Source: Methanomassiliicoccales archaeon (lineage in GTDB: Archaea > Thermoplasmatota > Thermoplasmata > SG8-5). Taken from it: a stretch of 36,500 nt of DNA. Positions within the stretch are counted from its first letter, which is position 1, and every line of letters begins with the position of its first letter. Position numbers and translations under genes: made by a program. Location: positions 1 through 36,500 of the forward strand of contig JAUWNU010000009.1 in assembly GCA_030612505.1 (NCBI GenBank), given 5' to 3'. The notes under the pieces are model-generated. The model was not told the origin of the DNA. It did not search any database and saw only the letters and a program-made list of their open reading frames with translations. Positions 1,671 to 25,333 of this stretch are shown here, one piece after another.

Positions 1671-1724
1671 CCTACCTATGTACTATGTGACTATCTATAA
1701 TATGATTAATTGAGGGTGAGGTGC

Positions 1725-5585: not shown

Positions 5586-5623
5586 TGGCTGAACATAAGA
5601 TCTGTGGAAGGTGCATATTATGA
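5585..5623 (+). other. 12-codon mini-ORF (MAEHKICGRCIL*) linking hdrB and hdrA
   Basis: ATG overlaps the hdrB stop (TAATG, 5583-5587). Its TGA overlaps the hdrA start (ATGA, 5620-5623). Confidence 0.35.
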
Positions 5624-8600
5624 GTGAAATAGGCGCTGTATTGGTGGCTGGCGGCGGTATCGGAGGTATTCAGTCTGCCCTGGACATGGCCGATGCCGGC
5701 TTCAAAGTATATCTTGTGGAAGAAAAGCCAGCCATTGGCGGAGTCATGGCCCAGCTGGACAAGACATTCCCAACAAATGATTGCTCATTATGTATTCTAT
5801 CGCCAAAGTTGGTGGATGTGGGCAGGCATCCAAATGTAGAGTTGCTAACCTATTCCGAAATCGAAGAGGTTTCAGGAAAAGTTGGCAATTTTAAGGTCAA
5901 GATTAAAAAGAAGGCTAGATATGTAACTGATGCATGTGTCGGCTGCAATTTGTGTTCCGATGCCTGCGTTCTGGCAAATCGCCTTCCAAATGAATTTGAC
6001 GAGGGCATAAAGAAGAGAAGCGCCATTTATATTCCATACCCCCAGGCAGTGCCATTGAGATATGTTATTAATGAGAACCAGTGTCTTCTCTTAAAGAATG
6101 GAAAGTGCAGCCAAAAATGCCTGGAGGCCTGCCCCTCAAATGCCATTGATTTTGACATGAAGGATGAGATAATCGAGGTAAATGTCGGGGCGATAATTAT
6201 GGCACCTGGCTATGATAAGTTCGACGCCACAGTGAAGGGTGAGTATGGCTATGGTCGATATCCAAATGTAATAACTTCCCTGGAATTCGAGCGGATACTT
6301 TCAGCATCAGGGCCCTTCGATGGTCAGATATTAAGGCCGTCTGATCACAAGAAGCCAGGGAAAATAGCATGGATCCAATGTGTTGGCTCCAGGGACAGCA
6401 CAGTTGGGAATGAGTATTGTTCATCTGTATGCTGCACCTATGCAATCAAGGAAGCAATTATAGCAAAGGAGCATGAACCAACAATCCAGCCAACAATTTT
6501 CTTCATGGACATGAGAACCCATGGAAAGGACTTCGAGGAATACTATAATCGTGCAAAGGACAAGCATGAGATACGGTTCATCAGATGCCGGGTTCCGGAT
6601 ATTTCAGAAGATCCAGGTTCTAAAGACCTTTATATCAGATTTGAAACAGAAGAAGGAGAATTGCATACCGAGAAGTTCGATCTGATTGTGCTGTCTGTTG
6701 GCTTTGAGCCTGGAGACAGCATCAAATCACTTGCTGAAAAATCAGGTATCCAGCTGAATCAGTACGGATTCAGTAAGAATTCTGAACTTAATTCCCTGGA
6801 GACCAGCGTGCCTGGAATCTATGCCTGTGGTGCATTCACAGGGCCAAAGGACATTCCAGAAACAGTTATGGAGGCCTCAGGCGCAGCAGCCAAGGCCAGC
6901 AGTACCATAATGTCCCAGCGAAATAAGCTTGTGAGCAGCAAGGAGTATCCCGATGAAATTGATGTATCTGGCAAGGAACCAAGAATAGGCGTTTTTGTCT
7001 GTCACTGCGGTATCAATATTGGCGCCTATGTGGACGTGCCAGACGTTGTCAAGTATGCAAAAACCCTGCCAAATGTGGTTCACGCAGACGAGAATCTATA
7101 CACCTGCTCCCAGGATACACAGCTGCTTCTGGTTGACCTCATAAAGAAGCATGATTTGAACAGGGTCGTAATTGCATCCTGCAGCCCAAGAACCCATGAA
7201 CCTCTTTTCCAGGAGACCATTCGCGAGGCAGGCCTCAACCCCTACCTCTTCGAGATGGCGAATATCAGGGACCAGTGCTCCTGGGTTCACATGGAGGAAC
7301 ATGATAAGGCCACAGCAAAATCCAAGGACCTGGTATCCATGGCCGTTAACAAGGCCAGGCTGATAGAATCACTACCACCAATGTCCATGGGGGTTATCCA
7401 GAAAGCATTGATTATCGGCGGGGGACTGGCAGGCATGACCTCTGCCCTGGCAATTGCGGAGCAGGGTTATGAGGCCTATCTGGTGGAGAAAGAGGCGGAG
7501 CTGGGAGGGAACCTTCGGAACCTTCATTATGACCTGGAAGGCCATGATATCGCGAAGATGCTGGATGAACTGGTCAAGAAGGTCAATGCCAGCGATAAGA
7601 TTCAGATTTTTACAGATACCAAAGTATCCAATATTGATGGTTTCATAGGTAATTTCCACACCACGCTGGAGTCTGAAAAGACCTTGGAAATTGACCACGG
7701 GGCCATAATACTGGCCACAGGAGCACAGGAGTCAAAGCCCAATGAATATCTCTTCGGTGATGACGAAAGAGTGGTCACACAACTTGACCTGGAAGCACGG
7801 CTTTCCAAGGGCGAGGACCTCAATGGCAAGACAATCACAATGATCCAGTGTGTTGGCTCCAGGGAAGAAGGAAGACCATATTGCAGCCGTATTTGCTGCA
7901 AGGATGCCATAAAGAACGCGCTGAAAATTAAGGAATTAAATCCAGATTCACAGGTTTTCATTCTCTATAGGGACATGCGAACCTATGGATATTCTGAAAA
8001 GCAATACAAGGAAGCCAGAGAGAAAGGCGTCATCTTTATCAGGTTTGATGTGGAGAAGAAGCCAGATGTAAAGAAAGGCCAGGATGGGCTGGAAGTATTA
8101 ATCCACGACCTTATTCTGAATGAGGACATTCTAATCAATACAGATATACTGGCCCTTAGTCCGGCCATTGTTCCAAGGGAGGGTAGCGAGGAGCTGGCTA
8201 AACAATTAAAAGTGCCATTGAACTCCGACGGCTTCTTCCTGGAGGCCCATGTCAAATTGCGGCCAGTGGACTTTGCCACCGATGGAATTTTTGTTGCAGG
8301 AATGGCACATTCACCCAAGTCCATGGGCGAGACAATATCCCAGGCCTATGCTGCTTCGTCTAGAGCAAGCATCCTGCTATCAAAGGATACAGTGAGCATC
8401 GAGCCAACTATTTCATCCATAGACCCGGAGCTCTGCGTGGGCTGTGGCCTTTGTGTCATGAACTGCCCCTACAATGCCATTGAGCTGAAACTCCGGGAAG
8501 GAGGAAAGAAAGCCGAGGTTATTTCCGTATCCTGCAAGGGCTGTGGGGTCTGCGGTGCCAGTTGTCCACATCTTGCAATTACAATGAAGCATTTTACTGA

Positions 8601-8649
8601 TAATGAGATCACTGCCCAGATACTTGCCTATGGAGGGGATTATAAATGA
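5620..8649 (+). CDS. hdrA: Heterodisulfide reductase subunit A, double-length (~1010 aa, two FAD modules), paralog 1
   Basis: VLVAGGGIGGIQSALDMADAGFKVYLVEEKPAIGGVMAQLDKTFPTNDCS, then a second dinucleotide fold ALIIGGGLAGMTSALAIAEQGYEAYLVEKEAELGGN; C-terminal CVGCGLCVMNCP and CKGCGVCGASCP. ATG at 5620 with SD ggaaggtg. Confidence 0.92.
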   Translation: MSEIGAVLVAGGGIGGIQSALDMADAGFKVYLVEEKPAIGGVMAQLDKTFPTNDCSLCILSPKLVDVGRHPNVELLTYSEIEEVSGKVGNFKVKIKKKARYVTDACVGCNLCSDACVLANRLPNEFDEGIKKRSAIYIPYPQAVPLRYVINENQCLLLKNGKCSQKCLEACPSNAIDFDMKDEIIEVNVGAIIMAPGYDKFDATVKGEYGYGRYPNVITSLEFERILSASGPFDGQILRPSDHKKPGKIAWIQCVGSRDSTVGNEYCSSVCCTYAIKEAIIAKEHEPTIQPTIFFMDMRTHGKDFEEYYNRAKDKHEIRFIRCRVPDISEDPGSKDLYIRFETEEGELHTEKFDLIVLSVGFEPGDSIKSLAEKSGIQLNQYGFSKNSELNSLETSVPGIYACGAFTGPKDIPETVMEASGAAAKASSTIMSQRNKLVSSKEYPDEIDVSGKEPRIGVFVCHCGINIGAYVDVPDVVKYAKTLPNVVHADENLYTCSQDTQLLLVDLIKKHDLNRVVIASCSPRTHEPLFQETIREAGLNPYLFEMANIRDQCSWVHMEEHDKATAKSKDLVSMAVNKARLIESLPPMSMGVIQKALIIGGGLAGMTSALAIAEQGYEAYLVEKEAELGGNLRNLHYDLEGHDIAKMLDELVKKVNASDKIQIFTDTKVSNIDGFIGNFHTTLESEKTLEIDHGAIILATGAQESKPNEYLFGDDERVVTQLDLEARLSKGEDLNGKTITMIQCVGSREEGRPYCSRICCKDAIKNALKIKELNPDSQVFILYRDMRTYGYSEKQYKEAREKGVIFIRFDVEKKPDVKKGQDGLEVLIHDLILNEDILINTDILALSPAIVPREGSEELAKQLKVPLNSDGFFLEAHVKLRPVDFATDGIFVAGMAHSPKSMGETISQAYAASSRASILLSKDTVSIEPTISSIDPELCVGCGLCVMNCPYNAIELKLREGGKKAEVISVSCKGCGVCGASCPHLAITMKHFTDNEITAQILAYGGDYK

Positions 8650-9413
8650 GCGAATTCGAGCCAAAAATTCTTGGATTCCTGTGCAATTGGTGTTCCTATG
8701 CAGGAGCAGACCTGGCCGGCGTTTCCCGGGTCCAGTATCCGCCGAATATTCGCGTGATTCGTGTTATGTGCTCCGGCAGGGTTGACCCACATTTCATATT
8801 CAAAGCATTCGAGATGGGAATAGACGGTGTGGCTGTTCTTGGATGCCACATAGGAGACTGCCATTATCAATCAGGAAATCATCAGGCAGAAAAGAAGATA
8901 GAACTCACCAGCCAGGCTTTGAAGGAAGTTGGCCTTCAGCCAGAGAGACTTCAGCTGGACTGGGTATCAGCAGCAGAGGGCCAGAGATTCGGACAGCTCA
9001 TCACCAGCTTTACTGATAAAATTCGAGAGCTTGGCCCAATCAGCGATATTCCAGATTATCAGAACAAGGCAAAGCTTGGTGGAAACATTGTTGGTGTCAC
9101 TAGATTAAGATGGCTGGTGGGAAAGGAGTATGAGATCTTCGAGAAGGGCAATGTTTACAAAGAGGAGATTGACCAGGATGAGTACAAGAACATCATGTGG
9201 CAGAACATCGAATTCGAGTTCAAGAAGGAATTAATATGCTCGGCTTTGGCTGAAGAGCCCCGGATGGTCAGGGATATCGCTGAAGAGCTGGCCCTTCCGA
9301 ATAAACTTGTTTTCGACTATATCACCGAGATGGAGAATGAAGGTAGAATTCATCTGGTGGATTTTGACGGAAATTTACCCAGATACAGATTGGCCAAGGG
9401 GGGTGAGCCCTGA
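8646..9413 (+). CDS. mvhD: MvhD-like FeS subunit fused to a C-terminal winged-helix-like domain
   Basis: N-terminal FLCNWCSYAGADLAGVSRVQYPPNIRVIRVMCSGRVDPHF...GCHIGDCHY (MvhD/FlxD). C-terminal ICSALAEEPRMVRDIAEELALPNKLVFDYITEMENEGRIHLVD resembles wHTH. ATGA overlap with hdrA. Confidence 0.85.
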   Translation: MSEFEPKILGFLCNWCSYAGADLAGVSRVQYPPNIRVIRVMCSGRVDPHFIFKAFEMGIDGVAVLGCHIGDCHYQSGNHQAEKKIELTSQALKEVGLQPERLQLDWVSAAEGQRFGQLITSFTDKIRELGPISDIPDYQNKAKLGGNIVGVTRLRWLVGKEYEIFEKGNVYKEEIDQDEYKNIMWQNIEFEFKKELICSALAEEPRMVRDIAEELALPNKLVFDYITEMENEGRIHLVDFDGNLPRYRLAKGGEP

Positions 9414-12412
9414 TGGACGAGAAAAAGATTGGAGCTGTACTGGTGGTAGGAGGCGGAATAGGAGGAATGCAATCCTCTCTGGACCTGGCCAATTCCGGAT
9501 TCAAGGTCTATATGCTGGACACATCACCTGCCATAGGCGGGACCATGGCCCAGCTTGACAAGACATTCCCCACCAATGATTGTTCCATGTGCATAATGGC
9601 CCCAAAACTTGTTGATGTTGGCAGGCACCCAAACATAGAATTGCTTACATACTCCGACCTGGAGGAGGTATCTGGAGAAGAGGGAAATTTCACAGTCAAG
9701 GTCAGGAAAAAGGCCAGGTATGTTGACGTGGACAAGTGCACAGGCTGCGGAGTCTGCGCAAATGAATGCCCCATCGACGCTATTTCTGGATTCAATGAAG
9801 GTCTTTCCAAACGCAGAGCAATCTATCTTGAATATCCACAGGCCGTACCACTGGCCTTCACAATTGACAGGGATAAATGTATAGGCTGCGGCCTCTGCGA
9901 GACACTTTGCCTGGCAGACGCAATTCTTTATGAGGATCAGGACCAGTTCCAGGAAATAAATGTTGGTTCCATAATTCTATGCCCGGGCTTTTCAGAGTTC
10001 GAGGCAGATGCCAAGGGTGAATATGGTCATGGGCGTTTTTCCAATGTTGTTACCAGCATAGAGTTTGAACGAATTCTCTCGGCTACTGGCCCATTTAAAG
10101 GGCATGTTCAGAGGCCCAGCGATGGTGATTTACCCGAAAAAGTGGCATTCATTCAATGTGTGGGTTCCAGGGACAGTTCCTGCGGCAATAATTATTGTTC
10201 ATCAGTGTGCTGTACCTATGCAATCAAAGAGGCGGTTATCGCCAAAGAGCATGTCAATACCATCCAGCCAACTATCTTCTTCATGGACATGAGAACCTAT
10301 GGCAAGGGTTTCGAGGAGTACTACAATCGCGCCAAAGATGATTATGGTGTGCGGTTCATAAGATGCAGAGTTCCAGAGGTCAGGGAAGACCCAGAGACAA
10401 AAAATCTCATTATCAGATACGAGAAGGAGGACGGCGAATTCATTGAAGAAGAATTTCAGCTGGTGGTCCTTTCTGTGGGTTTCGAGGCAGACCCCAGGTC
10501 TAAAGAGCTGGCTTCCCGTCTTGATATTGAATTGAACCAGTTCGGATTCTGCGACACCAGCGCACTTGCCCCTATGGACACATCGAAGCCTGGAGTCTAT
10601 GTCTGTGGAGCATTTTCAGGTCCAAAGGATATTCCAGAAACAGTTATGGAGGCCTCCGGTGCAGCAGCCAGGGCCAGCGGTAATATCTCAGCAGAGAGGT
10701 TCAGCCAGGTATCAGAAAAAGAATATCCGCCTGAGATAAATGTTGATGAGCTTCCAACAAGGATCGGGGTATTTGTCTGCAATTGCGGTATTAATATTGG
10801 TGGTTATGTGGATGTACCAGCAGTCCGGGATTATGCAAAAACCCTGCCCTGTGTGGCCTATGCCGAGGATAATTTATACACTTGCTCCCAGGACACACAA
10901 AAGAAAATAATCGAGACAATTAAAGAACACAAACTAAACAGGGTTATTGTGGCATCCTGCACACCCAGGACACATGAACCACTATTCCAGCAGACAATAA
11001 GGGAAGCAGGCCTCAACCCATACCTCTTCGAGATGGCGAATATCCGGGATCAGTGCTCCTGGGTACACATGAGCGAGCCAGAAAAAGCAACGCAAAAATC
11101 CAAAGACTTGGTAAAAATGGCTGTGGCCAAGGCGGCCCTGAGAACTCCATTGCCAACAGTTTCACTGGATGTTACCCAGAGCGCTTTGGTGGTGGGCGGA
11201 GGCCTTGCAGGAATGATATCTGCACTGGCAATAGCTGAGCAGGGTTATGAAGTATATCTGGTGGAAAAGGATGAACAACTCGGTGGAAACATGCGCCGAA
11301 TTCATTACGACCTGGAAGATATTGATGTCCAGGGGTATATGAACTCCATAATTGAGAAGGTGGAAAACAATTCGCTAATCAATGTTTACAAAGGCACAAG
11401 TATAGAGTCAATTCATGGCTTTGTTGGCAATTATAAAACATTGTTGAAGGGCGGTGCAGAGTTTGAACACGGCACTGTTATTGTGGCCATTGGTGCAGAG
11501 GAGATGAAACCCAATGAATACCTGTATGGACAGCATGAGAACATTGTTACTCAACTTGGATTCGAGGAGCTGTTCACCTCTGGCCAGAACCTCAGCGGAA
11601 AGACCATAGTGATGATCCAGTGTGTTGGCTCCAGGGATGAAAATCATGCTTATTGCAGCCGTGTTTGCTGCGCAGATGCTATCAAGAACGCCATTAAGGT
11701 CAAGGAGCAGCATCCAGATGCTAATATTTTCATACTCTACCGTGACATGAGAACCTATGGTTTCAAGGAAATTTATTATGAAAAGGCCAGAGAGATGGGC
11801 GTCATCTTTGTGAGATATGACCTGGAAGAAAAACCCAAGGTCACCATGGGCCAGGAAGGTCTGGAAATCACAGTGAAGGACCATATTCTCCGCGAAGAAC
11901 TGCTGCTTAACACGGATTTCTTGGTTCTCAGTCCGGCCATAATACCCAGGGAGGACAGTGAGGAACTGGCTAAACAATTGAAAGTGCCATTGAACTCTGA
12001 CGGTTTCTTCCTGGAAGCCCATGTAAAATTGCGACCAGTTGATTTTGCCACAGAAGGTGTTTTCCTTGCCGGTATGGCACATTCCCCAAAGACCATCACA
12101 GAAACCATTTCCCAGGCATACGCAGCGGCGGCCAGGGCCTGCACTATCATATCAAAAGACACGTTCATAACAGAAGCGACAATCGCCGAGGTCAATGATG
12201 CCAGTTGCGTCGGCTGCGGATTGTGTGTGGAGGCGTGTCCGTACTCTGCCATAGAGCTTACCGAGCAGGGAATAGCCAGCGTGAACGCGGCCCTGTGCAA
12301 AGGATGTGGATTATGCAATGCCACCTGCCGTTCTGGAGCCATCCAGCAAAGAGGCTTTGAGGACAGACAGATCCTGGCCATGATAAAGGGCTCTCTGAAC
12401 GAAGTGTTTTAG
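9413..12412 (+). CDS. hdrA: Heterodisulfide reductase subunit A, double-length (999 aa), paralog 2
   Basis: VLVVGGGIGGMQSSLDLANSGFKVY...TFPTNDCS; second module ALVVGGGLAGMISALAIAEQGYEVYLVEK; C-terminal CVGCGLCVEACP and CKGCGLCNATC. TGATG overlap with the mvhD fusion. Confidence 0.92.
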   Translation: MDEKKIGAVLVVGGGIGGMQSSLDLANSGFKVYMLDTSPAIGGTMAQLDKTFPTNDCSMCIMAPKLVDVGRHPNIELLTYSDLEEVSGEEGNFTVKVRKKARYVDVDKCTGCGVCANECPIDAISGFNEGLSKRRAIYLEYPQAVPLAFTIDRDKCIGCGLCETLCLADAILYEDQDQFQEINVGSIILCPGFSEFEADAKGEYGHGRFSNVVTSIEFERILSATGPFKGHVQRPSDGDLPEKVAFIQCVGSRDSSCGNNYCSSVCCTYAIKEAVIAKEHVNTIQPTIFFMDMRTYGKGFEEYYNRAKDDYGVRFIRCRVPEVREDPETKNLIIRYEKEDGEFIEEEFQLVVLSVGFEADPRSKELASRLDIELNQFGFCDTSALAPMDTSKPGVYVCGAFSGPKDIPETVMEASGAAARASGNISAERFSQVSEKEYPPEINVDELPTRIGVFVCNCGINIGGYVDVPAVRDYAKTLPCVAYAEDNLYTCSQDTQKKIIETIKEHKLNRVIVASCTPRTHEPLFQQTIREAGLNPYLFEMANIRDQCSWVHMSEPEKATQKSKDLVKMAVAKAALRTPLPTVSLDVTQSALVVGGGLAGMISALAIAEQGYEVYLVEKDEQLGGNMRRIHYDLEDIDVQGYMNSIIEKVENNSLINVYKGTSIESIHGFVGNYKTLLKGGAEFEHGTVIVAIGAEEMKPNEYLYGQHENIVTQLGFEELFTSGQNLSGKTIVMIQCVGSRDENHAYCSRVCCADAIKNAIKVKEQHPDANIFILYRDMRTYGFKEIYYEKAREMGVIFVRYDLEEKPKVTMGQEGLEITVKDHILREELLLNTDFLVLSPAIIPREDSEELAKQLKVPLNSDGFFLEAHVKLRPVDFATEGVFLAGMAHSPKTITETISQAYAAAARACTIISKDTFITEATIAEVNDASCVGCGLCVEACPYSAIELTEQGIASVNAALCKGCGLCNATCRSGAIQQRGFEDRQILAMIKGSLNEVF

Positions 12413-12468: not shown

Positions 12469-12903
12469 TTACTGCTTTTTATTCTCTATGTCTGCGACTT
12501 CCTTCTTGACGAAATCAGGAACTGCTGCCCCGTGGAATAGGTTGGCCAGCTCTCCGTCCTTGTCAGAGGGCTTTAATTTCATTATCCATCCTTCTCCATA
12601 GGAATCCTTGTTTATGAGCATGGGGTCGTCCTCAAGTTCCTCATTGACCTCTAGTATTTCGCCTGACAGTGGGGATACGAACTTTCCTACCCATTTTGCA
12701 GACTGGATCTTTCCACAAGTCTCACCCTGTTCCACGTCATCCCCCTCAAATGGAAGGTCGATGTATGTAGTGTCACCTGAGTTCTTCTGGTAAAAATCGC
12801 TCATTCCCACAAGAACAGTTCCGTCACCAGAAACCTTGACCCATGCATGTTCCTTGTGATAGTACAAATCCTCTGGCATATTGTATCCTTCGATGTCTGT
12901 CAT
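12469..12903 (-). CDS. GcvH/LbpA-like single-domain lipoyl carrier protein
   Basis: HAWVKVSGDGTVLVGMSDFYQ...GDTTYIDLPFEGDDVEQGETCGKIQSAKWVGKFVSPLSGEILEVNEEL: lipoyl-Lys region of the GcvH fold. ATG at 12903 with aggaa SD. No gcvT or gcvP in the window. Confidence 0.85.
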   Translation of the reverse strand: MTDIEGYNMPEDLYYHKEHAWVKVSGDGTVLVGMSDFYQKNSGDTTYIDLPFEGDDVEQGETCGKIQSAKWVGKFVSPLSGEILEVNEELEDDPMLINKDSYGEGWIMKLKPSDKDGELANLFHGAAVPDFVKKEVADIENKKQ

Positions 12904-12953
12904 GTTTATTCCTCTACTGGCGGTAATATAATATGTATTATTAAGTTTTTGAT

Positions 12954-13982
12954 TTACTGCCACAGTTGTGATTTTATCAGTTCGATGTCCTCTTCCTCCG
13001 GTGTGAAGGCATAATTTCTTATTTCAGGACCAGGCACACAGTTTGCATATGGCCGGTTGCACGCAACCTCCCCGTCCCTCCCTGGGCAGCCGCTGGTGCG
13101 GAAGGGGTTTCCCTGGGCCATGATATTGTCCAGTTCCTGTTGGTTCAGGCCGAAGCTGACCAAGTTTCCAGAATCATCGAATGAGAAGGATGTTATTCTG
13201 GAAATATCCCTGTCAATAAGGTATCTGGCAAGCTGAACTCTTCTGTATTGACCAATAGGTGGCTGTGGATGCTCTGCCAAAAAAGAATCATGTTCTGGAA
13301 AGAATGAAAAAAGATGTGTGTATCCGCCCATGTCGCGGACTCTCTGGATGACCTTTATAATCTGCTGTTCGGTTTCACCGAGGCCCACAATGAGATGTGC
13401 GCCTGCCATATCCTTGCCAAACACCTCTATTGAATCTTCAAGGCATTTCCAATAGGTTTCCCATTTGTGTGGGCCTCCTACTCCCCGGCCTCTGAATTTC
13501 TCGAATAGTTCTGGGGTGGCGCAATCTATTGCCACGCCTATCATGTCAGCCCCATCAGCTTTGTATCTGATTAAGTCGTCCTTGGTGAGGATGGTAGGGG
13601 CTATCAAAAGGGACACTGGAATGTCCAGTTTGTCCCTAAGTTTCCTGGTTATCTCGGAAGTATCTTTGACAGACTTTCTGTTGGTGACCATGGAGATGCA
13701 TATCCTCTTGACCCGGTTCCCGCTGGCAGACATCTGCTCTATCATGCCATCAAGGCTGTATGTGGGCCAGCCCACCCTGATAAAGCTCTTGTCCTCATAG
13801 GCTCCCTGACGCTTCATTGACAGACCGCAGTATGCACAGCTGCCTGCACATCCACTATCATATGTCAGAAGCACATTGATGCAGGGAGATGTGGCGTTCC
13901 TGTAGAAACGTCCTCTTTTGAGGTCCATAGTCATGGCAGCAGCCAGGCTTGTTCTCAAATATTCCGGTGATTCGCCAGACAT
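12954..13982 (-). CDS. Radical SAM protein, LipS-type (split lipoyl synthase subunit)
   Basis: CAGSCAYCGL (CxxxCxxC), C-terminal Cys cluster CPGRDGEVACNRPYANC; beside lipoyl carrier and ligase genes. Starts at TAATG overlap at 13982. Confidence 0.75.
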   Translation of the reverse strand: MSGESPEYLRTSLAAAMTMDLKRGRFYRNATSPCINVLLTYDSGCAGSCAYCGLSMKRQGAYEDKSFIRVGWPTYSLDGMIEQMSASGNRVKRICISMVTNRKSVKDTSEITRKLRDKLDIPVSLLIAPTILTKDDLIRYKADGADMIGVAIDCATPELFEKFRGRGVGGPHKWETYWKCLEDSIEVFGKDMAGAHLIVGLGETEQQIIKVIQRVRDMGGYTHLFSFFPEHDSFLAEHPQPPIGQYRRVQLARYLIDRDISRITSFSFDDSGNLVSFGLNQQELDNIMAQGNPFRTSGCPGRDGEVACNRPYANCVPGPEIRNYAFTPEEEDIELIKSQLWQ

Positions 13983-14923
13983 TATTTTACCTCCCTGATG
14001 TTCAAGGGAACAGAGCAGCATGTTCCCTGCCACTCCACATCCAATCCATAATTTTGCGCCTTATTTATAGCTTCATCTGATGGAAGGGCTATCCTGTTCA
14101 CCCCACAGTCTACGGCCAATATGCAAGTCTCTGGGTTACTTCTATCCCTGGCGCATCCCAATGATATCTGCACATCAGGCATCTCTATGCGCACTGTAGC
14201 AATAATCCTGGCAATATCTTCGGGAGCCGGCGGGGTAACATTTTCCATGGGCGTTCCTTTCAGGGGCATGAGCGATACTATTACAACTGATTCTGGCTCG
14301 AAATTTTTAATGATCTGGATGGCCTCATATTCTCCTCTTATATTTCCATAGTCCAGACCCACGACTATGTGCGGAGCAACAGGTAGATCGGCCTCTCTCA
14401 GGGCACTCAGGGTTTTAACTATCTCGTCTGTGCCGAAGTCCAGCTTGAGCACCTTTTTCATGGTATCATCATCACCTATCACATCCAGCATTACCTGGTC
14501 AATTCCAGCATCCTTCATTCTCCTGGCCGTTTCCAGGTCTATCATTCCGCCGTGGACCGATATGTGAAGGCCGGTCTCCTCCTTCACTGTCTTTATTGCC
14601 CCTAGGAATTCATCCCACGGGAGTGTGCCATCCTCACTGAAACCACCGGTGATCAGGCAGCCAATATCCCCTCTGCTCTCAATGTTTCGGCAGGTTTTTA
14701 TTAAATCTTCAGGGGTGGTGGCATGAATCATTGGCTCAAGCAGCTTTGCTTTGCAGTGGTCACATTGGAGCTCACATCTATCTCCGGTGATGGATATTGC
14801 CGGATATTTTCCCCATTTTCCGTAATATCTGAACATTCCTGGGTGATAAAAAGCAATCTTCTTACCGAACCTCTCCCAGGAGATGGACCTTGCCTTTGCC
14901 ATCAATTCTTCAATATCAATCAT
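13982..14923 (-). CDS. Radical SAM protein, LipS-type (second split lipoyl synthase subunit)
   Basis: ISITGDRCELQCDHCKAKLL (CxxxCxxC), C-terminal CARDRSNPETCILAVDCGVNRIALPS; paired with the adjacent radical SAM gene. Confidence 0.75.
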   Translation of the reverse strand: MIDIEELMAKARSISWERFGKKIAFYHPGMFRYYGKWGKYPAISITGDRCELQCDHCKAKLLEPMIHATTPEDLIKTCRNIESRGDIGCLITGGFSEDGTLPWDEFLGAIKTVKEETGLHISVHGGMIDLETARRMKDAGIDQVMLDVIGDDDTMKKVLKLDFGTDEIVKTLSALREADLPVAPHIVVGLDYGNIRGEYEAIQIIKNFEPESVVIVSLMPLKGTPMENVTPPAPEDIARIIATVRIEMPDVQISLGCARDRSNPETCILAVDCGVNRIALPSDEAINKAQNYGLDVEWQGTCCSVPLNIREVK

Positions 14924-15974
14924 GGTAATACTCCCTGAATGCCACCCAGCATTTTTTTATTACGGTGTCCAGCTCATCCCAGCGAGATTCCAATATCCGG
15001 CGCTTCTCCAATGCATTTTGAAGGGTCTGGCCGTATATCATCTGCCATTCTTTCTCATAGGCCTTCAGGCGGCCCAGGTCATCCTCATCAATTGCCCTGG
15101 CTGCAGCCTTTCCTGCCATTTTTCCGCACATCACGGCCTGGGTTATTCCGCCACCAGTTATGGCATCGGTATGTCCTGCTGCATCGCCCACCAGCAGAAT
15201 ATTCTCCTTGACCGTGTTCAGGGGCCCTCCCACCGGGATAGGGCCAGCTGTCAAGGAAACTGGGCTGTTTTTGACCTTGCCTTGCCCTTCCAGCTCTTTA
15301 ATGAAATCGTCCAAGAGGGCACGCAACTGCCTGCCAGTTCCATTGGGTGAACCTGATTTAATGCCAATGCCCACATTAGCCACATCACGCTTGGGAAACA
15401 GCCAACCATAGCCCCCAATGAATTTGGAATCGAAAAATATCTCTGTGAAATCCTGGGGGGCTGTCAAAGGCAGCGTACACTGCAAGCCGCTGACGAATTC
15501 CGTATTAATGCTCCCTATCCATTTACCCACAACAGAATTTGGACCGTCTGCACCCACTATCACCTTGGGTGAAACAATTATGTCCTTATCTCCCTGCCTG
15601 AGATACACTTCATCGCCAGCCTTTGAAACGCATAGGGTCTCTGTCATTATCTCAGCACCTTTCTCTTTTGCATTGCTGGCCAAGGCCTTGTCAAAAGCAT
15701 CCCTGTTCAGAATATATCCTGGTGAACTGGTCTCTACTATCTCGCCATCTGGAAGATGCGTTATCATTGATTCTATCTTCTGGGAAATGACATCAGTGGA
15801 AACACCTGATTCTGCCAGCAGCATCTTGGGAATATATTCTGCGCACTGGACTGGCAGCCCTATTTCTTTTCGTTTCTCCACCATTAACACACGACAGCCA
15901 GCTTTCGCTGCCTCCAATGCAGCCGAGGAACCCGCAGGACCGGCACCAACAACAAGCACATCATATTGTGACAT
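14916..15974 (-). CDS. FAD-dependent oxidoreductase of the geranylgeranyl-reductase-like family; LipT candidate by context
   Basis: YDVLVVGAGPAGSSAALEAAKAGCRVLMVEKRKEIGLPVQCAEYI; ILLVGDAAGHTDAITGGGITQAVMCGKMAG. Confidence 0.8.
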   Translation of the reverse strand: MSQYDVLVVGAGPAGSSAALEAAKAGCRVLMVEKRKEIGLPVQCAEYIPKMLLAESGVSTDVISQKIESMITHLPDGEIVETSSPGYILNRDAFDKALASNAKEKGAEIMTETLCVSKAGDEVYLRQGDKDIIVSPKVIVGADGPNSVVGKWIGSINTEFVSGLQCTLPLTAPQDFTEIFFDSKFIGGYGWLFPKRDVANVGIGIKSGSPNGTGRQLRALLDDFIKELEGQGKVKNSPVSLTAGPIPVGGPLNTVKENILLVGDAAGHTDAITGGGITQAVMCGKMAGKAAARAIDEDDLGRLKAYEKEWQMIYGQTLQNALEKRRILESRWDELDTVIKKCWVAFREYYHD

Positions 15975-17538
15975 CCAGCACCCTCCTCAATAGTTTGAGA
16001 TTAACTTCAGTTTGATTCTCAAATTTTCCCACATAGGCATTTTCTTCCTTTCCCATTTCATAGCATGTTGTGCTGTCAATGTCAAGTAATATGGCAGGTA
16101 GGCCTGAAAACTCAAAATCCTCAATGTGTTTGGCATAGAAGGCATCGCAGCAGCATCCAATATATGATGAAGCTCCCTGACCCTTCAGTATTTCGATGGT
16201 TTCAATAAGATGCTCGAAGCTCTGGATGGTCATAACCTCCATATTTTTCGCAATTCCCAGGGCATAGGCATCGCTGATGCTGCACTCGCCGCATTCGGCA
16301 CAGCCATCTTTGTATCTCCAGCCGCAGTCTAAAGACTTTGAACAATATGGCAGAAGAAGGTGCTGGGGCGCTTTCTCGAGTACGCCAGCGAAGGTGTCGT
16401 TAACAACATTGATACGATTAGCTAGATGCAGTGGGATGCCGAGTCTAGCAATCTCCATCTTTTCGAGACCCTTGGATATGGCCGCCACAAAATCAGATGG
16501 TTCGATACCAGGTATCTGACAATCATTTTTATCGAAAAAGCTGGTGATCTTCTGCTTGATAACTGAAATGTCTGCCTTGATGTCTTTCAACTCTGCTTCG
16601 AGGTCGAATATCGCCCTCATTGGGAATGTAAAGAAATCGCCGGTGATGAGAACACTCTGGATGCGTTCCTGCCGTAGGTTTACCATCATGGAACTTCTGA
16701 TGATGCCGCCCTTTGTCTTGTGAACCGAGTCCACCACAGCTTGCTCACCCTTGGGACGTTTTATCTTGTTTATCCAGTCATCTGATTTGAAATAATTCTT
16801 TCTATCATTGAACATGATTTTCTCATGATCTGTCAATCCGCCATCTTCCAGAGTTATTTTGAAGCATCTCTCGAAGCTGCTCTTTAATATCTCTTTCAGT
16901 TTAGGAAGTTCGGGAACAATATCCATCTCCCATTTCAGACAGGTTACCCTTTCTCTTGCCGATGCCAGCTCTTTGGCTTTCAATTTTTCAATGGGAACTC
17001 TAAGGGCCCGAAGCATGGAATCCACGTCAAAGTCCACCAGTAGAGTACCCTGAAAGAGAATGGCTCCGCCTTCCTCTGTGCCGCCGGTTCCGGAGATTTT
17101 TCTACCGTCAACCTCTATGTCATTTCTTGGCCTGAAGGAAGCCTGAATTCCCATCTCCCCCAGCGCCTGGATGACTGGTTCACAGATCCTCTCAAAAAGA
17201 GCGGTATTTGGCAGCCCTGCATCAATGGATGATTTATGGCAAATGACCTCCCAGCCTATCTGGGTCTGGTCAAAGAATATGGCCCCGCCGCCGGTTATTC
17301 TTCGATTTATCTCAATTTCATTTTCCAGGCAATATTTCAGCCTGGCTTCCTGGTCAACGCTCTGATTGAAGCCAACAAGAACAGCAGGGCGGCTGAACTG
17401 CATTAACCTGATGGTATCTGGAGATATATCTTTGGCCCTTGATTCAAGCAACACTTCGTCCAGAGCCATATTATCGGAGGCATTAAGTATGCCAGTGTCA
17501 AGAAACCTCCATTTTGACATGCTCCACCCAATGTTCAT
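15961..17538 (-). CDS. Lipoate-protein ligase (LplA plus LplB-like domain) fused to a C-terminal DUF116-like Cys-rich domain
   Basis: LplA: MALDEVLL...RPAVLVGFNQSVDQE...INRRITGGGAIFFD...GRKISGTGGTEEGGAILFQGTLLVD. LplB-like: KTKGGIIRSSMMVNLRQERIQSVLITGDFF. DUF116-like: LLLPYCSKSLDCGWRYKDGCAECGECSISDAYALG...IGCCCDAFY. Confidence 0.82.
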   Translation of the reverse strand: MNIGWSMSKWRFLDTGILNASDNMALDEVLLESRAKDISPDTIRLMQFSRPAVLVGFNQSVDQEARLKYCLENEIEINRRITGGGAIFFDQTQIGWEVICHKSSIDAGLPNTALFERICEPVIQALGEMGIQASFRPRNDIEVDGRKISGTGGTEEGGAILFQGTLLVDFDVDSMLRALRVPIEKLKAKELASARERVTCLKWEMDIVPELPKLKEILKSSFERCFKITLEDGGLTDHEKIMFNDRKNYFKSDDWINKIKRPKGEQAVVDSVHKTKGGIIRSSMMVNLRQERIQSVLITGDFFTFPMRAIFDLEAELKDIKADISVIKQKITSFFDKNDCQIPGIEPSDFVAAISKGLEKMEIARLGIPLHLANRINVVNDTFAGVLEKAPQHLLLPYCSKSLDCGWRYKDGCAECGECSISDAYALGIAKNMEVMTIQSFEHLIETIEILKGQGASSYIGCCCDAFYAKHIEDFEFSGLPAILLDIDSTTCYEMGKEENAYVGKFENQTEVNLKLLRRVLDVTI

Positions 17539-17553
17539 ATATTTATAAAAACT

Positions 17554-17997
17554 TCATACATCACATTTCACCATGTGTTCTATCCTGACCTCTGGAATTA
17601 TGGAGTTGCTTATCATGCACCAGGCACCTATTTCGGCAAATATCTTATCCACTACTGCCCTATCTTCTTCTTTAAAAATATTTACAACTGGCTTGACAAT
17701 CAGGGACACATATCTTATGGAGCCGTCCACCATGCTGGCTTCGCCCTTTGCAGTACTTTTGTAGGATGCTATCTCCAGCTTTTCCTTGTGGGCCAGGAAA
17801 AGAAATGTGGACATTGTGCATATTTCTATTGAGCCAACAAACAAATGTTCTGGCGTCCAGATATCCTTGTGACCGCCAAACTCAGGGGCGCATGCAACAT
17901 CAATATCTGGCATGCCCTTGGTTCTCATAATGCCTTTTCTTTCTGTGATCCACTCGACTTCTGTATCATAAAAATACTTTCTAGGCTCGATTTTCAT
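17554..17997 (-). CDS. OsmC/Ohr-family protein with two candidate catalytic Cys
   Basis: TPEHLFVGSIEICTMSTFLFLAHKEKLEI...IGAWCMISNSIIPEV: the two OsmC-type Cys positions. Small ORF in the same operon. Confidence 0.75.
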   Translation of the reverse strand: MKIEPRKYFYDTEVEWITERKGIMRTKGMPDIDVACAPEFGGHKDIWTPEHLFVGSIEICTMSTFLFLAHKEKLEIASYKSTAKGEASMVDGSIRYVSLIVKPVVNIFKEEDRAVVDKIFAEIGAWCMISNSIIPEVRIEHMVKCDV

Positions 17998-18013: not shown

Positions 18014-18943
18014 TCAGAACTCATTGAACATGTTCTTTATCTCTTCATTGGTGAACACTGGCCCATGTTTGCAAACATACACATCGCCGATATTGCATCT
18101 GCCGCATTTACCAATACCGCATTTCATTCTGTTCTCCAGTGTTGTATAAATCTGGTCAGACTTCCACCCCAGCTTTTCCAATGCCTGGGTAATGAACTTT
18201 ATGGCTATAGGCGGCCCGCATGTTACAACTATGGAATTTTCCGGGTCTGGCTTCACAACCTCCACCAATTGTGGAACAAAACATGTGAACTTGTTTACTC
18301 CATCAGGAATCTCTGTTTCTCCTGGAGCTGCCATGTTTATGGCTGGCCATCCTTCTGCTGCGGTTTCACCAGTAGGGCCTTTGGGCCCGAACTTCCAGTC
18401 AATGCAGAGCCACAAATTCAGGTCGTCCCTGGTGTCCATGGCCTTGAACTCCTCCTTGAAGGCCAGATCTGCCGGAGTTCTGGCACCATAGATGAGCGTC
18501 ACTTTACCGTATTTCTTTATCTCATCCGGCTGAATTGCAACCTGATACACAGAACGCACTGGCGAAATTCCGATACCTGCGCCAATGAACACTATATTCT
18601 TGCCTTCCCACTCTTCCAGTGGGAAATGATTGCCATATGGTCCCCTGACGCCAACTTTATCGCCGACTTCGAGTTCATGAAGCTTGCTGGTAACATTACC
18701 CACCTTCATGGCTGAAACTTGAACTATTCCATCCTTATTGGGCAGGGAAGCGATTGCAAACACGCTCTCGCCGGTTCCGAATATGCTAATTATTGTGAAC
18801 TGGCCAGGCTTGTGATAGAAACTTTCTCGAACTGAAACATCATCAACCTGCATGGTTATTGTCTTGATTGGCCTTCCTCCGCCAGCCTCCAGCTGTATGT
18901 CTGTTATGGTGGCTGTGTGTGGCTTGTAAACATTATCGCTCAT
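18014..18943 (-). CDS. FAD/NAD(P)-binding oxidoreductase, FlxA / HydG / AsrB-like
   Basis: YHKPGQFTIISIFGTGESVFAIAS flavin motif, IVFIGAGIGISPVRSVY nucleotide binding, C-terminal CGIGKCGRCNIGDVYVCKHGPVF 2Fe-2S. Confidence 0.85.
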   Translation of the reverse strand: MSDNVYKPHTATITDIQLEAGGGRPIKTITMQVDDVSVRESFYHKPGQFTIISIFGTGESVFAIASLPNKDGIVQVSAMKVGNVTSKLHELEVGDKVGVRGPYGNHFPLEEWEGKNIVFIGAGIGISPVRSVYQVAIQPDEIKKYGKVTLIYGARTPADLAFKEEFKAMDTRDDLNLWLCIDWKFGPKGPTGETAAEGWPAINMAAPGETEIPDGVNKFTCFVPQLVEVVKPDPENSIVVTCGPPIAIKFITQALEKLGWKSDQIYTTLENRMKCGIGKCGRCNIGDVYVCKHGPVFTNEEIKNMFNEF

Positions 18944-19986
18944 CTCATGGCCTCCTTTGCTCCCTCAACAACCTCAATAATATCAATGTTCACCGGGCAT
19001 CCAGATATGCATCTGCCGCAGCCAACGCAGCCCAATAATCCCAGATTCTTCTCGGAGTAAAGGAACTTATGATACACACGGTTCCGCTGCCTGAACATCT
19101 TTTCCGGCCTTGGATTATGGCCTGATGCATGCATGGTGTAATATGGATACTGGCAGGAATCCCATACCCGCTCACGTCTGCCCTTTCCATTGGCCAATAC
19201 GTCCTGAATGTCGAAACAGTGGCATGTGGGGCACAGAAGAGTGCAAATACCGCAGCCCAGGCATCTCTGGGCAAACTCGGTCCAGTAATCACTGTCAAAT
19301 GCGGCCTCCAGGGCTTCCGGAACTCCATCTGTTTCGAGTTTTCTGATAATAGCATCACTGGCTTTTTGCTTCGCAGCATTGGTCGAGCTCTCTTGGTCGC
19401 CTGTGGCATCTGTGAAGATTCCCTCGCCAAGCTTCAGAATATTCTCTCCTTTCTCATTGAGAGATTCCACCAGGAAAGCATCGCCTATGTCGGTCCAGAG
19501 CATGTCTGCTCCTTCTCCAGAGCCAGGCCCGCCGCCTACTGATGTGCAGAAACATGAGTCCAGAGGCATTGTTGGCTGTGTGCAGCTGAAACTGATTATT
19601 GTGGCCCTTTCACGCTTGTTAACATAATACGGGTCAATGGAGTCCCAGGTGAACAGCTTGTCCAGAACTTTAATGGCACGGGCATCGCAGGGTCTTATTC
19701 CCAAAAGCAAGATTGGAGTGCTGGGCATCTCTACCTCTATTGTTCCGGTTATCCTGTGATTCTCTATTGTAAGGTCAAACATCTTCTCGGTCTGGGGGAA
19801 TAATATCTCCTTGGGAGGTTTGCTTGAGTTCTCGAAGTTCAGAAGAACCTCATCACCCTTCACTTTCTGGAATAATGTTGTGCCGTTCTTTTCCACTGGC
19901 CCATATGTTATGAACCCGGTATCCGAGAGTTTTCCAAGCAGGTCTTTGAGCTTGTCTTTTTTGAGTAATTTTGACATATCATACAC
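18940..19986 (-). CDS. 4Fe-4S protein, FlxB / HydB / AsrA-like
   Basis: ILLLGIRPCDARAIKVLDKLF, CLGCGICTLLCPTCHCFDIQD, CVGCGRCISGCPVNIDI. Confidence 0.85.
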   Translation of the reverse strand: MYDMSKLLKKDKLKDLLGKLSDTGFITYGPVEKNGTTLFQKVKGDEVLLNFENSSKPPKEILFPQTEKMFDLTIENHRITGTIEVEMPSTPILLLGIRPCDARAIKVLDKLFTWDSIDPYYVNKRERATIISFSCTQPTMPLDSCFCTSVGGGPGSGEGADMLWTDIGDAFLVESLNEKGENILKLGEGIFTDATGDQESSTNAAKQKASDAIIRKLETDGVPEALEAAFDSDYWTEFAQRCLGCGICTLLCPTCHCFDIQDVLANGKGRRERVWDSCQYPYYTMHASGHNPRPEKMFRQRNRVYHKFLYSEKNLGLLGCVGCGRCISGCPVNIDIIEVVEGAKEAMR

Positions 19987-19989
19987 CTC

Positions 19990-21006
19990 CTACCATATCT
20001 CCTCTCCAGGGTCGTCAATGTCATATGAACCGAACATTGGCTTGTCCTCTACATTTATGCCTGAAAATACCTTGCATCTTTCCTTGGCACGTTTTATCAG
20101 GAAGCGGTTTATCTCTCTTATTGGAATTCCCATGGGGCAAACACGGTCACACTCGCCGCAGTCCACGCAGCGGCCGGCCAGATGCATTGCCCTTACCATG
20201 TGATAGAATGTGTTTTCCCTTAATTGAACCGATTTCTCGTTCCAACTGAATGGCTTCTCCTTGTCGAACACACATTCCTCGCAGTAGCATAACGGGCATA
20301 CATCTCTGCATGCATAGCATCTTACGCATTTGGAGAGATGCTCTTTCCAGTAGTTCCAGCGTTGATCTTCTGTCATTTCTTCCAGTTTTTTCACATCTTC
20401 AAATTCATCAGGAACAAAGGGTTCATTGGATTCGCCAACCAGAATATCATGTATGACTGGCTTGTGGGTTATGCAGACCTTGCATTTATCGGCCTCCAGC
20501 TCTTCCTGGGGGACCTTCAGCTCGCCTCCGTCATACTTGATTATGTAATTCTTATTACCATCATCTATGAATCTTATGCCCCCTCTCTTACCAGGGGGAA
20601 TATCCTTGATGGCTGCCTCCAACTTATCCGGGTTAATGGAATTCTCGGTGGCAACACCGATTATTTTCACTCTCTCTCTGGGAACCATGTTTTCCTTGAT
20701 GAGCTCCACAATGGTCTTTGAATCGCAGGGTTTGACAACAATGCCAACAGCATGGGTGAAAGGTTCTTCGCCTCTCTTGGGCTTTTTCTTCATTTCATCG
20801 ACCAGGTAGAGGGTCAAATTGCTAATGCAGTCTGGACCCCAATATAGTTTGTCTACGTCCTTAGCGTCATGAATAAAAACTGGTCTGGCAATCAGGGAGT
20901 CATGGCTCTTTTCGTAGCCAATGACAAACTTTACCTCTCCACTCTCAAGCCACTGTTTTGCCTGTGATTTTATTTTGGCTTCAAAATCTTGAAAATCCAT
21001 CATCAA
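19990..21006 (-). CDS. 4Fe-4S protein, FlxC-like / FrhB-FdhB-like N-terminus
   Basis: AVGIVVKPCDSKTIVELIKEN, CVRCYACRDVCPLCYCEEC, CVDCGECDRVCPMGIPI; lies between flxB-like and mvhD. Confidence 0.75.
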   Translation of the reverse strand: MMMDFQDFEAKIKSQAKQWLESGEVKFVIGYEKSHDSLIARPVFIHDAKDVDKLYWGPDCISNLTLYLVDEMKKKPKRGEEPFTHAVGIVVKPCDSKTIVELIKENMVPRERVKIIGVATENSINPDKLEAAIKDIPPGKRGGIRFIDDGNKNYIIKYDGGELKVPQEELEADKCKVCITHKPVIHDILVGESNEPFVPDEFEDVKKLEEMTEDQRWNYWKEHLSKCVRCYACRDVCPLCYCEECVFDKEKPFSWNEKSVQLRENTFYHMVRAMHLAGRCVDCGECDRVCPMGIPIREINRFLIKRAKERCKVFSGINVEDKPMFGSYDIDDPGEEIW

Positions 21007-21446
21007 ACATCGCCTCCAGTGAGTTTATTTTGCGGCCCCAGTTCCTTTATCTGTGCAGTGAATTTTATAACAACCTCTGCGAATTTCTTTCCCTCTGAGG
21101 CCGATACCCAGGATACCTGGAATCTTTTTGGGTCTACCCCCATGAACTCCATAAGGTCCGTGGTAAGTGTGAGCTTTCTCTTTGCATGGTAGTTTCCCTC
21201 AATGTAATGGCAGTCGCCAGGATGGCATCCCGAGACCAGTACGCCATCTGCACCTTCCTGAAACGCCTTGAGAATAAATTGCGGGTTCACACGGCCGGAG
21301 CACATGACCTTGATTATGCGTATATTCGGCGGATACTGCAACCTTGAGGTTCCAGCCAGGTCTGCACCAGTATAACTGCACCAGTTGCATAAAAAGCCTA
21401 TGATTTTCGGTTCCCACTCACTATCTGTTTTACTAATTTCGGTCAT
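21003..21446 (-). CDS. mvhD: MvhD/FlxD-like FeS subunit
   Basis: IIGFLCNWCSYTGADLAGTSRLQYPPNIRIIKVMCSGRVNPQFILKAFQEGADGVLVSGCHPGDCHY. Confidence 0.9.
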   Translation of the reverse strand: MTEISKTDSEWEPKIIGFLCNWCSYTGADLAGTSRLQYPPNIRIIKVMCSGRVNPQFILKAFQEGADGVLVSGCHPGDCHYIEGNYHAKRKLTLTTDLMEFMGVDPKRFQVSWVSASEGKKFAEVVIKFTAQIKELGPQNKLTGGDV

Positions 21447-24810: not shown

Positions 24811-25333
24811 TTCTACCCGCCTCTAGCCCTCTCTCAAAGGCATTGATATTAAGGTCTGTAAATCTCTTTGGCACACTATCTATTACTGCTTTCTTTACTG
24901 CCTCTGGAGAAAGCGTGTCGTCGATGCCGATAATGGCACCTACCATGGCTATATTGGTCACAATCTTGTTGCCAAGGTCTTCTGCAATCTTCTGAACCTG
25001 CACCTTGTAAAGTAGCCTGCCAATGTCATGGTTCGGCACAAGGTCCGGGTCTATGATTATCACCGTATCATCACGAATATCGTGACGATATGAATTGAAG
25101 GCCTCCTGTGCCATTGCGACCATAAGGTCACAGCTGGTTGGCCTGGGGTAGCCGATTTTCTCGTCAGATATTATGACCTCTGACCTTGCAGCGCCTCCTC
25201 TGGCCTCTGGGCCGTATGACTGGCTCTGCACAGCATTGAAATCCGAGAACACACATGCTGCCTTGCCCATTATGAAACCAGCAAGGATGACACCCTGGCC
25301 CCCGAAACCGCAAATTCTAATCTCTTTTTTCAT
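24794..25333 (-). CDS. korC: 2-oxoacid:ferredoxin oxidoreductase, gamma subunit (2-oxoglutarate type likely)
   Basis: ICGFGGQGVILAGFIMGKAA...QSYGPEARGGAARSEVIISDEKIGYPR; between korB and hdrA. Confidence 0.88.
   Translation of the reverse strand: MKKEIRICGFGGQGVILAGFIMGKAACVFSDFNAVQSQSYGPEARGGAARSEVIISDEKIGYPRPTSCDLMVAMAQEAFNSYRHDIRDDTVIIIDPDLVPNHDIGRLLYKVQVQKIAEDLGNKIVTNIAMVGAIIGIDDTLSPEAVKKAVIDSVPKRFTDLNINAFERGLEAGRNARPE

Follow-up and report, generated by a model that had tools for sequence, protein, structure and literature searches.

A candidate protein-bound lipoyl pool encoded in a heterodisulfide reductase operon of a Methanomassiliicoccales archaeon

The DNA analyzed here is a stretch of 36,500 nucleotides from a Methanomassiliicoccales archaeon (GenBank assembly GCA_030612505.1, contig JAUWNU010000009.1, positions 1 to 36,500), referred to as the window, which corresponds to contig C28 of a metagenome-assembled genome (MAG) of 2.25 Mb that is 85% complete. 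It contains a single minus-strand run of 19 genes (31403 to 12469) that begins with HdrC, a subunit of heterodisulfide reductase (Hdr), and ends with a lipoyl carrier preceded by its putative assembly enzymes. It is fairly probable that this is an Hdr operon with a dedicated lipoyl carrier, which would provide a thiol/disulfide pool for full-size Hdr and for Tfr/GlcD-type enzymes with CCG domains, with the thiol peroxidase OsmC as a side branch.

The 19-gene run and its Hdr-type enzymes

The transcription order is HdrC2, HdrB2, TfrB-like, TfrA-like, KorD, KorA, KorB, KorC, HdrA2, FlxD, FlxC, FlxB, FlxA, OsmC, LplA-LplB-DUF116, LipT, LipS1, LipS2 and the carrier (Table 1). Adjacent genes overlap or are separated by up to about 50 bp, except for FlxD and HdrA2, which are 184 bp apart. 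The six genes from OsmC to the carrier, described in the initial annotation as directly downstream of Flx-Hdr genes, were found at the positions, in the order and on the minus strand given there; their profile matches agree, and they belong to the same run. All 19 genes occur in the same order on contig C68 of genome G003 (locus L033; Euryarchaeota archaeon S2_100, from the same family and another genus), an independently assembled MAG, and this contig also carries the convergent HdrA1b-FlpD1-HdrA1a genes as in the window. Since the whole run recurs, the arrangement is neither chance nor an assembly accident.

Profiles and gene order confirmed that the Hdr partners are full-size HdrA, HdrBC, Flx, Kor and Tfr rather than the small proteins of sHdr loci, in which the order is HdrC-HdrB-HdrA(341 aa)-hyp-HdrC-HdrB-carrier-Lpl (L043 and kin). 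FlxA to FlxD accompany HdrA and HdrBC in both the window and L033, as in FlxABCD-HdrABC, with FlxC called from weak Fer4/FrhB matches. In methanogens, the CCG motifs of HdrB bind noncubane clusters that reduce a disulfide, and both motifs are intact in each of HdrB1 and HdrB2. The TfrA-like protein keeps four fumarate-reductase active-site motifs (HPTG, RD, HYxNGG and NRLxGNSLL), and the histidine for covalent FAD is absent. It scores far below the cut-off for the TfrA that works with coenzyme M and coenzyme B (CoM/CoB), and the TfrB-like protein lacks the CCG domain. In the TfrA-like protein, about 90 residues before the FAD domain have no Pfam match.

The lipoyl carrier and its assembly enzymes

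The carrier probably starts at the ATG at 12903, which gives a protein of 144 aa, in a reading frame that is open from 12963. Its GcvH fold is clear from the sequence, and K70 (codon 12696-12694), aligned with the lipoyl lysine of GcvH, is the predicted site of modification. Just 5' of this start, at 12904-12953, there is an AT-rich stretch, aataatacatattatatt, that could be the carrier's own promoter.

Canonical GcvH proteins present ES[VMI]KxxSD at the lipoyl lysine, whereas the window carrier has QSAKWVGK, and carriers near Hdr or CCG genes elsewhere have S[GAS]K[WF]xG or close variants (hereafter, alternative-motif carriers). In a tree built with the motif columns masked, and with PDB sequences from E. 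coli, T. thermophilus and mycobacteria in the canonical set, one branch splits 48 alternative-motif carriers from 35 canonical GcvH proteins with a support of 100/99. The window carrier clusters first with Thermoplasmata carriers that are likewise linked to Hdr (99/93) and then with the carrier of the bacterial Flx-Hdr locus L081 (99/80). The sHdr-type carriers (L043, L048, L049, L180, L181), which also have S[GA]KW at the lipoyl lysine, are placed in another subclade of the alternative-motif side and present N- and C-terminal cysteines, while the window carrier has a single cysteine, at position -7 from the lipoyl lysine. Such terminal cysteines distinguish the lipoate-binding protein LbpA from GcvH, some archaeal LbpA excepted (PMC6067878). 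Close to CCG proteins there are also degenerate GcvH-like proteins with GRR, GMR or GKR at the lysine position (L114:4681-5076, L121:18573-18992, L129:12749-13069), which are possibly non-lipoylated partners.

Judged by its sequence, the window carrier is not a member of GcvH despite its GcvH fold, and it is a paralogue of the genome's own GcvH; the description of it as a lone GcvH-like carrier has to be qualified, as a second, canonical GcvH (C114) is encoded elsewhere together with GcvPA/PB (C135) and GcvT (C151), which makes the glycine cleavage system complete. The initial annotation had also noted the lack of gcvT, gcvP and a 2-oxoacid dehydrogenase E2. This is correct for the window, and an E2 was not found in the ten genomes searched, including the source genome, but the glycine cleavage genes do exist in the genome. 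A complete glycine cleavage system combined with a carrier inside GcvH had been named as what would speak against a link with Hdr, and only the first of the two was observed, with the carrier outside GcvH in the tree.

Regarding the assembly enzymes, a ligase with its catalytic lysine, LipS1, LipS2 and LipT occur together, as in the LplAB-LipS1/S2-LipT pathway, although LipS2 scores under the strict NCBIfam cut-off. Homologous systems have been shown to make the lipoyl group (PMC10332631, PMC9585515). In the alignment of relatives, the ligase keeps the invariant lysine of GRKISGTGG, and the LipT-like gene adjoins lpl and lipS genes in dozens of genomes. The DUF116 domain at the C-terminus of the ligase presents eight cysteines that do not vary across seven relatives, and an Fe-S cluster might be bound there, perhaps with a link to sulfur insertion. 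The LplA-DUF116 fusion was found in at least 549 relatives from Thermoplasmata, Desulfobacterota, Chloroflexota, Asgard archaea and others. An apparent in-frame TGA in two relatives with LplA-DUF116 was considered as possible recoding and rejected, since translation truly starts shortly after it. Not every cassette adjoins Hdr genes: in L119 (Formimonas) it adjoins a molybdenum hydroxylase-type gene, with no carrier nearby. A second, shorter LplA paralogue is located in or beside the GlcD-GlpC-HdrC runs of relatives (L036:11906-12961, L050:5071-6114, L283:9887-10843, L267:5041-6042), and the window has none between GlpC (3161-4225) and HdrC1 (4222-4710).

OsmC keeps both catalytic cysteines, C60 and C127, in the window and in the carrier-adjoining OsmC of L055, L110 and L124, while the match in L114 stops before the second one. 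This conservation and the recurrence of OsmC beside alternative-motif carriers in several phyla agree with the earlier idea of OsmC as an acceptor branch. Lipoyl-dependent Ohr activity has been published (cited as reference 7 in PMC10332631), and in Trichomonas OsmC reportedly functions together with a glycine decarboxylase complex that is incomplete (Nyvltova et al. 2016, cited as reference 8 in PMC10332631). A literature search on OsmC with Hdr gave no direct precedent apart from the work cited in this text. OsmC is probably a side branch of the lipoyl-carrier pool, because most loci with alternative-motif carriers have CCG proteins but no OsmC.

Linkage of carriers to Hdr and CCG proteins in relatives

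The GcvH-family genes of 61 relatives were taken with their surroundings, and genes within 5 kb were counted as neighbors. Lipoylation genes were near 18 of the 21 alternative-motif carriers, CCG proteins near 13 and HdrA near 12; for the 50 canonical GcvH genes the counts were 1, 0 and 0, respectively. A search for CCG motifs without homology queries gave 28/41 alternative-motif carriers versus 2/39 canonical ones (Fisher p = 1.7e-9, a value that overstates independence, as the motif split is a single branch and phylogeny ties the counts to one another). Of the two canonical exceptions, L129 is a divergent carrier that the pattern probably assigned to the wrong group. An alternative-motif carrier is present in all ten relatives with LplA-DUF116, including one that is cut at a contig end; the other genomes with such a carrier are the five of family f11, where it is found in sHdr-type loci.

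Synteny between the lipoyl cassette and Hdr genes, proposed as a check in the initial annotation, is conserved, with the whole order in L033 and other arrangements elsewhere. The relatives with the cassette are labelled Thermoplasmata or Euryarchaeota, and the linkage of carriers to CCG/Hdr genes is kept in records from Thermoplasmata, Bathyarchaeota, Nitrososphaeria and Desulfobacterota, and in the bacterium of L081. In the hydrogenase-linked arrangement (L223/L224), L223 encodes GlcD-GlpC-HdrC-HdrB-HdrA, ShyBC-like proteins, a [NiFe]-hydrogenase, HycI, OsmC, the carrier and LplA, and the run goes on in L055 with LipT, LipS1 and LipS2. Genome G009 presents KorABC and HdrA2 followed by a NuoE/NuoF-like module (L228). 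Later on this contig come the carrier, GlcD-GlpC-LplA'-HdrC1 and an HdrA-like run (L036), and then LplA and LipT (L056). The bacterial locus (L081/L225; Ca. Subteraquimicrobium) reads HdrC-HdrB-HdrA-FlpD-HdrA-FlxDCBA-carrier-GlcD-GlpC-x-LplA-LipT-LipS1, and L110 reads HdrCB-carrier-OsmC. In two GlcD-GlpC-HdrCBA runs without OsmC the carrier has an internal position: between GlpC and HdrC in L283 (GlcD-GlpC-carrier-HdrC-HdrB-HdrA-FlpD) and between an LplA paralogue and HdrC in L267 (carrier-HdrCBA). Among Desulfobacterota (L063, L065, L071, L092, L093, L120, L127), an S[GA]KW carrier is directly followed by a CCG protein like the C-terminal part of TfrB; these pairs sit upstream of the lipoyl cassette with no HdrA nearby.

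The features of the window are listed in Table 1. The GlcD-to-HdrA1b operon faces the 19-gene run, whereas in L223 its counterpart and the lipoyl cassette share one strand. A TrmB-like regulator (31616-32719), divergent from the run, is a candidate for its regulation. The 1028-aa protein at 33296-36382, with PKD domains and NosD/beta-helix repeats, is likely to be located at the cell surface and to have no relation to the operon.

Table 1. Genes and operons of the window, with the matches on which their assignment is based.
Feature	Position	Strand	Evidence
Lipoyl carrier, GcvH fold, LbpA-like (QSAKWVGK, K70)	12469..12903	-	GCV_H 3.2e-38
LipS2-type radical SAM protein, CxxxCxxC present	12954..14033	-	NF053743 2.6e-68, 231 bits, under cut-off 270
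LipS1-type radical SAM lipoyl synthase, CxxxCxxC present	13982..14923	-	NF053742 236.7 bits, above cut-off 230
LipT-like FAD oxidoreductase, geranylgeranyl-reductase superfamily	14916..15974	-	TIGR02032 2.9e-66
Lipoate/octanoate-protein ligase, LplA catalytic + LplB-like + DUF116	15961..17538	-	PF21948 5.2e-47; PF10437 (LplB-like C-terminus) 3.2e-5; PF01976 (DUF116) 6.1e-8
OsmC/Ohr-like thiol peroxidase, C60 and C127 conserved	17554..17997	-	PF02566 3.8e-9
FlxA-like NAD(P)H/FAD subunit	18014..18943	-	NAD_binding_1, DHODB_Fe-S; HydG/ShyC/AsrB-like
FlxB-like Fe-S subunit, HydB/AsrA-like	18940..19986	-	Fer4_22 2.4e-32; ShyB 213 bits
FlxC-like Fe-S/FrhB-like subunit	19990..21006	-	Fer4 and FrhB_FdhB_C, weak matches
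FlxD/MvhD, FlpD family	21003..21446	-	PF02662 6.1e-58
HdrA (HdrA2), 1059 aa	21631..24810	-	FAD and Fer4 domains
KorC, KorB, KorA, KorD, 2-oxoacid (2-oxoglutarate type):ferredoxin oxidoreductase	24794..27649	-	KorA 542 bits, cut-off 411
TfrA-like fumarate reductase flavoprotein	27662..29308	-	NF004900 (TfrA) 307 bits, under cut-off 718; alignment to SdhA/FrdA
TfrB/SdhB-like Fe-S subunit without CCG domain	29305..30090	-	Fer2/Fer4
HdrB (HdrB2), two intact CCG motifs	30083..30976	-	CCG 3.4e-21; PDB HdrB matches 7e-36
HdrC (HdrC2)	30969..31403	-	Fer4_17 1.8e-11; TIGR03290 76 bits, under cut-off 160
Convergent operon: GlcD-like FAD dehydrogenase, GlpC/TfrB-like CCG protein, HdrC1, HdrB1, HdrA1a, FlpD, HdrA1b	1710..12412	+	Profile matches

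Proposed role, alternative explanations and significance

In methanogens, CoM-SH and CoB-SH play the role of thiol pool for HdrABC, HdrDE and Tfr. The archaeon studied here does not appear to make methane: mcrA and the CoM marker ComA were not found in the 15 genomes searched, mostly incomplete MAGs, and neither was DsrC, so that no other known disulfide partner of Hdr was detected in them. ComA is a partial marker, as Methanosarcina makes CoM by another route, and the M. acetivorans control gave no match.

In the proposed scheme, LplA-LplB-DUF116 would attach octanoate or lipoate to the carrier at K70, and LipS1/LipS2 would insert two sulfurs with electrons from LipT. The carrier would be a specialized GcvH paralogue in which the surface next to the lipoyl lysine (S[GA]KWxG) fits CCG subunits of Hdr-type enzymes instead of GcvP/GcvT, and its dithiol/disulfide would form a small protein-bound pool common to several CCG enzymes, namely HdrABC, the TfrAB/HdrBC-type fumarate reductase and the GlcD-GlpC-type 2-hydroxyacid dehydrogenases. 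HdrABC would be fed by NADH via Flx here, and by NuoEF-like or NiFe-hydrogenase modules in relatives, Kor would use ferredoxin, and OsmC would spend dihydrolipoyl on peroxides. The most plausible net reaction would be dihydrolipoyl-carrier + fumarate -> succinate + lipoyl-carrier, which Flx-HdrA would couple to the exchange between NADH and ferredoxin. Since, apart from lipoylation genes, alternative-motif carriers most often have a protein with a CCG domain as their neighbor, noncubane clusters exchanging electrons with the lipoyl disulfide would be the simplest reading; we infer the lipoylation itself, the direction of the electron flow and the contact between carrier and HdrB.

As for the energetics, the fumarate/succinate potential is about +30 mV. 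The other values are -290 mV for lipoamide (PMC6067878) and -140, -320, -420 and -190 mV for CoM-S-S-CoB, NAD, ferredoxin and pyruvate/lactate, respectively (PMC5861303). Arithmetic on standard potentials gives about +13 kJ/mol for the transfer from 2 NADH to ferredoxin and lipoyl, versus about -15 with CoM-S-S-CoB, and about -49 kJ/mol when fumarate is the final acceptor via dihydrolipoyl. The lipoyl group is too low in potential to copy CoM-S-S-CoB directly, and therefore a fumarate pull or confurcation is more likely: either fumarate reduction would keep the pool oxidized, or dihydrolipoyl and reduced ferredoxin would together yield NADH or H2. The replacement of CoM/CoB by the lipoyl carrier, as proposed in the initial annotation, is favored by the linkage, the carrier clade and the missing mcrA, ComA and DsrC matches, but in its simple form it is thermodynamically awkward.

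Several points weigh against the proposed pool. Lipoamide is a poor acceptor for NADH-driven bifurcation and not a like-for-like substitute of CoM/CoB, and the chemistry between carrier and Hdr is proposed from gene and protein sequences. The shared operon could reflect the order of biosynthesis rather than contact, and HdrA, HdrBC, TfrAB and Flx might pass electrons directly, without a diffusible thiol. Furthermore, 8/21 alternative-motif carriers have no recognized CCG neighbor within 5 kb, in several Thermoplasmata the Hdr subunit nearest to the carrier is HdrA, the linkage counts share the dependence noted above, and with incomplete MAGs the absences are provisional for any single genome.

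Among the closest known systems is the sHdr-LbpA sulfur-oxidation system, established with sLpl(AB), LipS1, LipS2 and LipT (PMC6067878, PMC10332631), and if the window carrier were an LbpA of this type the operon would oxidize lipoate-bound sulfane sulfur to sulfite. Both systems pair a GcvH-like lipoyl carrier outside GcvH, with S[GA]KW and the same assembly enzymes, with Hdr subunits bearing CCG motifs. However, sHdr loci have an HdrA of about 340 aa in the order C1-B1-A-hyp-C2-B2, whereas the window combines an HdrA of about 1000 aa with FlxABCD, Kor, Tfr, OsmC and a ligase with DUF116; its carrier lacks the LbpA cysteines and belongs to another subclade, and DsrC was not found in the genomes searched, which makes this explanation improbable. 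It is less probable still that the carrier is a glycine cleavage H-protein, or a donor in lipoyl relay, placed here by accident. It does pass the TIGR00527 gcvH cut-off (122.5 versus 115.85), and the genome does contain GcvP, GcvT and E3-like genes, but it also has a canonical GcvH, no E2 that would need a relay was found in the genomes searched, the Hdr synteny is conserved and the tree keeps the carrier out of GcvH.

An unlikely explanation, although the one with most weight among the alternatives, is that HdrA, HdrBC, TfrAB and Flx form one complex in which NADH passes its electrons straight to ferredoxin and fumarate, with the lipoyl carrier as a separate antioxidant that reduces OsmC. The genes for TfrB and HdrBC form an unbroken stretch with those for HdrA and Flx, fumarate as direct acceptor would be strongly exergonic, and both the recurrence of OsmC beside carriers in several phyla and the Trichomonas report fit it; on the other hand, most carrier loci have CCG proteins without OsmC, including the GlcD-GlpC-HdrCBA runs of L283 and L267. 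Finally, the carrier could hold an acyl, aminomethyl or one-carbon intermediate of an unrecognized enzyme, with Hdr only reoxidizing the dithiol in place of lipoamide dehydrogenase. Known lipoyl systems carry intermediates, and GcvH is found beside MttB/MtrH genes in some Asgard archaea (PMC11291895), but no acyl- or aminomethyl-transferase is present in the operon or was seen as a constant neighbor of other carriers, and E3-like genes exist, with a strict lipoamide dehydrogenase match in G003; we regard this option as doubtful, slightly more so than an LbpA function. The replacement of E3 by Hdr was set aside on the same E3-like genes.

Concerning other known systems, the methanogen thiol:fumarate reductase TfrAB (NF004900/NF004898) likewise combines a TfrA-like flavoprotein next to an Fe-S subunit with HdrB-type CCG domains, but in the window the CCG part is a separate HdrB, the TfrA score is low and no CoM/CoB marker genes were found. 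A literature search on fumarate reductase with Hdr yielded no direct precedent other than the papers cited here. The FlxABCD-HdrABC NADH dehydrogenase/heterodisulfide reductase (Ramos et al. 2015, as cited in PMC5861303) has the same FlxABCD and HdrA with HdrBC; here, however, the bacterial disulfide partner DsrC was not found in the genomes searched, and a lipoyl carrier with its assembly kit is part of the run. The idea is not wholly new, since for Culexarchaeia GcvH has been suggested as the holder of the disulfide of Hdr and partner of HdrB (PMC9723716). The Ehe cluster of that work also encodes GcvH with HdrBC, SdhA and HdrA2B2C2, but it is a membrane [NiFe]-hydrogenase with CdhA, and its description, in the sections concerned, makes no mention of OsmC, Flx, Kor or a lipoylation cassette in it, or of any separation of the carrier from GcvH by phylogeny or motif. 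As far as the literature was searched, the new elements are the association with Flx, Kor, Tfr and full-size HdrA, a dedicated cassette with LplA-DUF116, the separation of these carriers from GcvH and sHdr LbpA by motif and tree, and their occurrence across phyla.

HdrABC complexes are frequent among anaerobes that produce neither DsrC nor CoM/CoB, and their substrate is called an "unidentified heterodisulfide" in one recent paper (PMC11291895) and an unknown disulfide in another (PMC9723716). The locus gives a concrete candidate for this partner, together with its assembly enzymes and a motif that separates it from ordinary GcvH, and it suggests that the lipoyl carrier is the long-sought disulfide partner of Hdr enzymes where the methanogen coenzymes are absent. 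It is possible, and here put forward only tentatively, that S[GA]KW carriers with their own LplA-DUF116 ligase are a general protein-bound substitute for CoM/CoB, a common disulfide/dithiol pool on which HdrABC, Tfr-type fumarate reductases and GlcD-GlpC dehydrogenases would draw in many anaerobes, archaeal as well as bacterial, that neither make methane nor oxidize sulfur. The locus makes the question directly testable, and the carrier has relatives in several phyla, among them Desulfovibrio, of which some species are in culture. If the carrier has the proposed role, electron transfer between Hdr-type enzymes would join the few known roles of lipoate.

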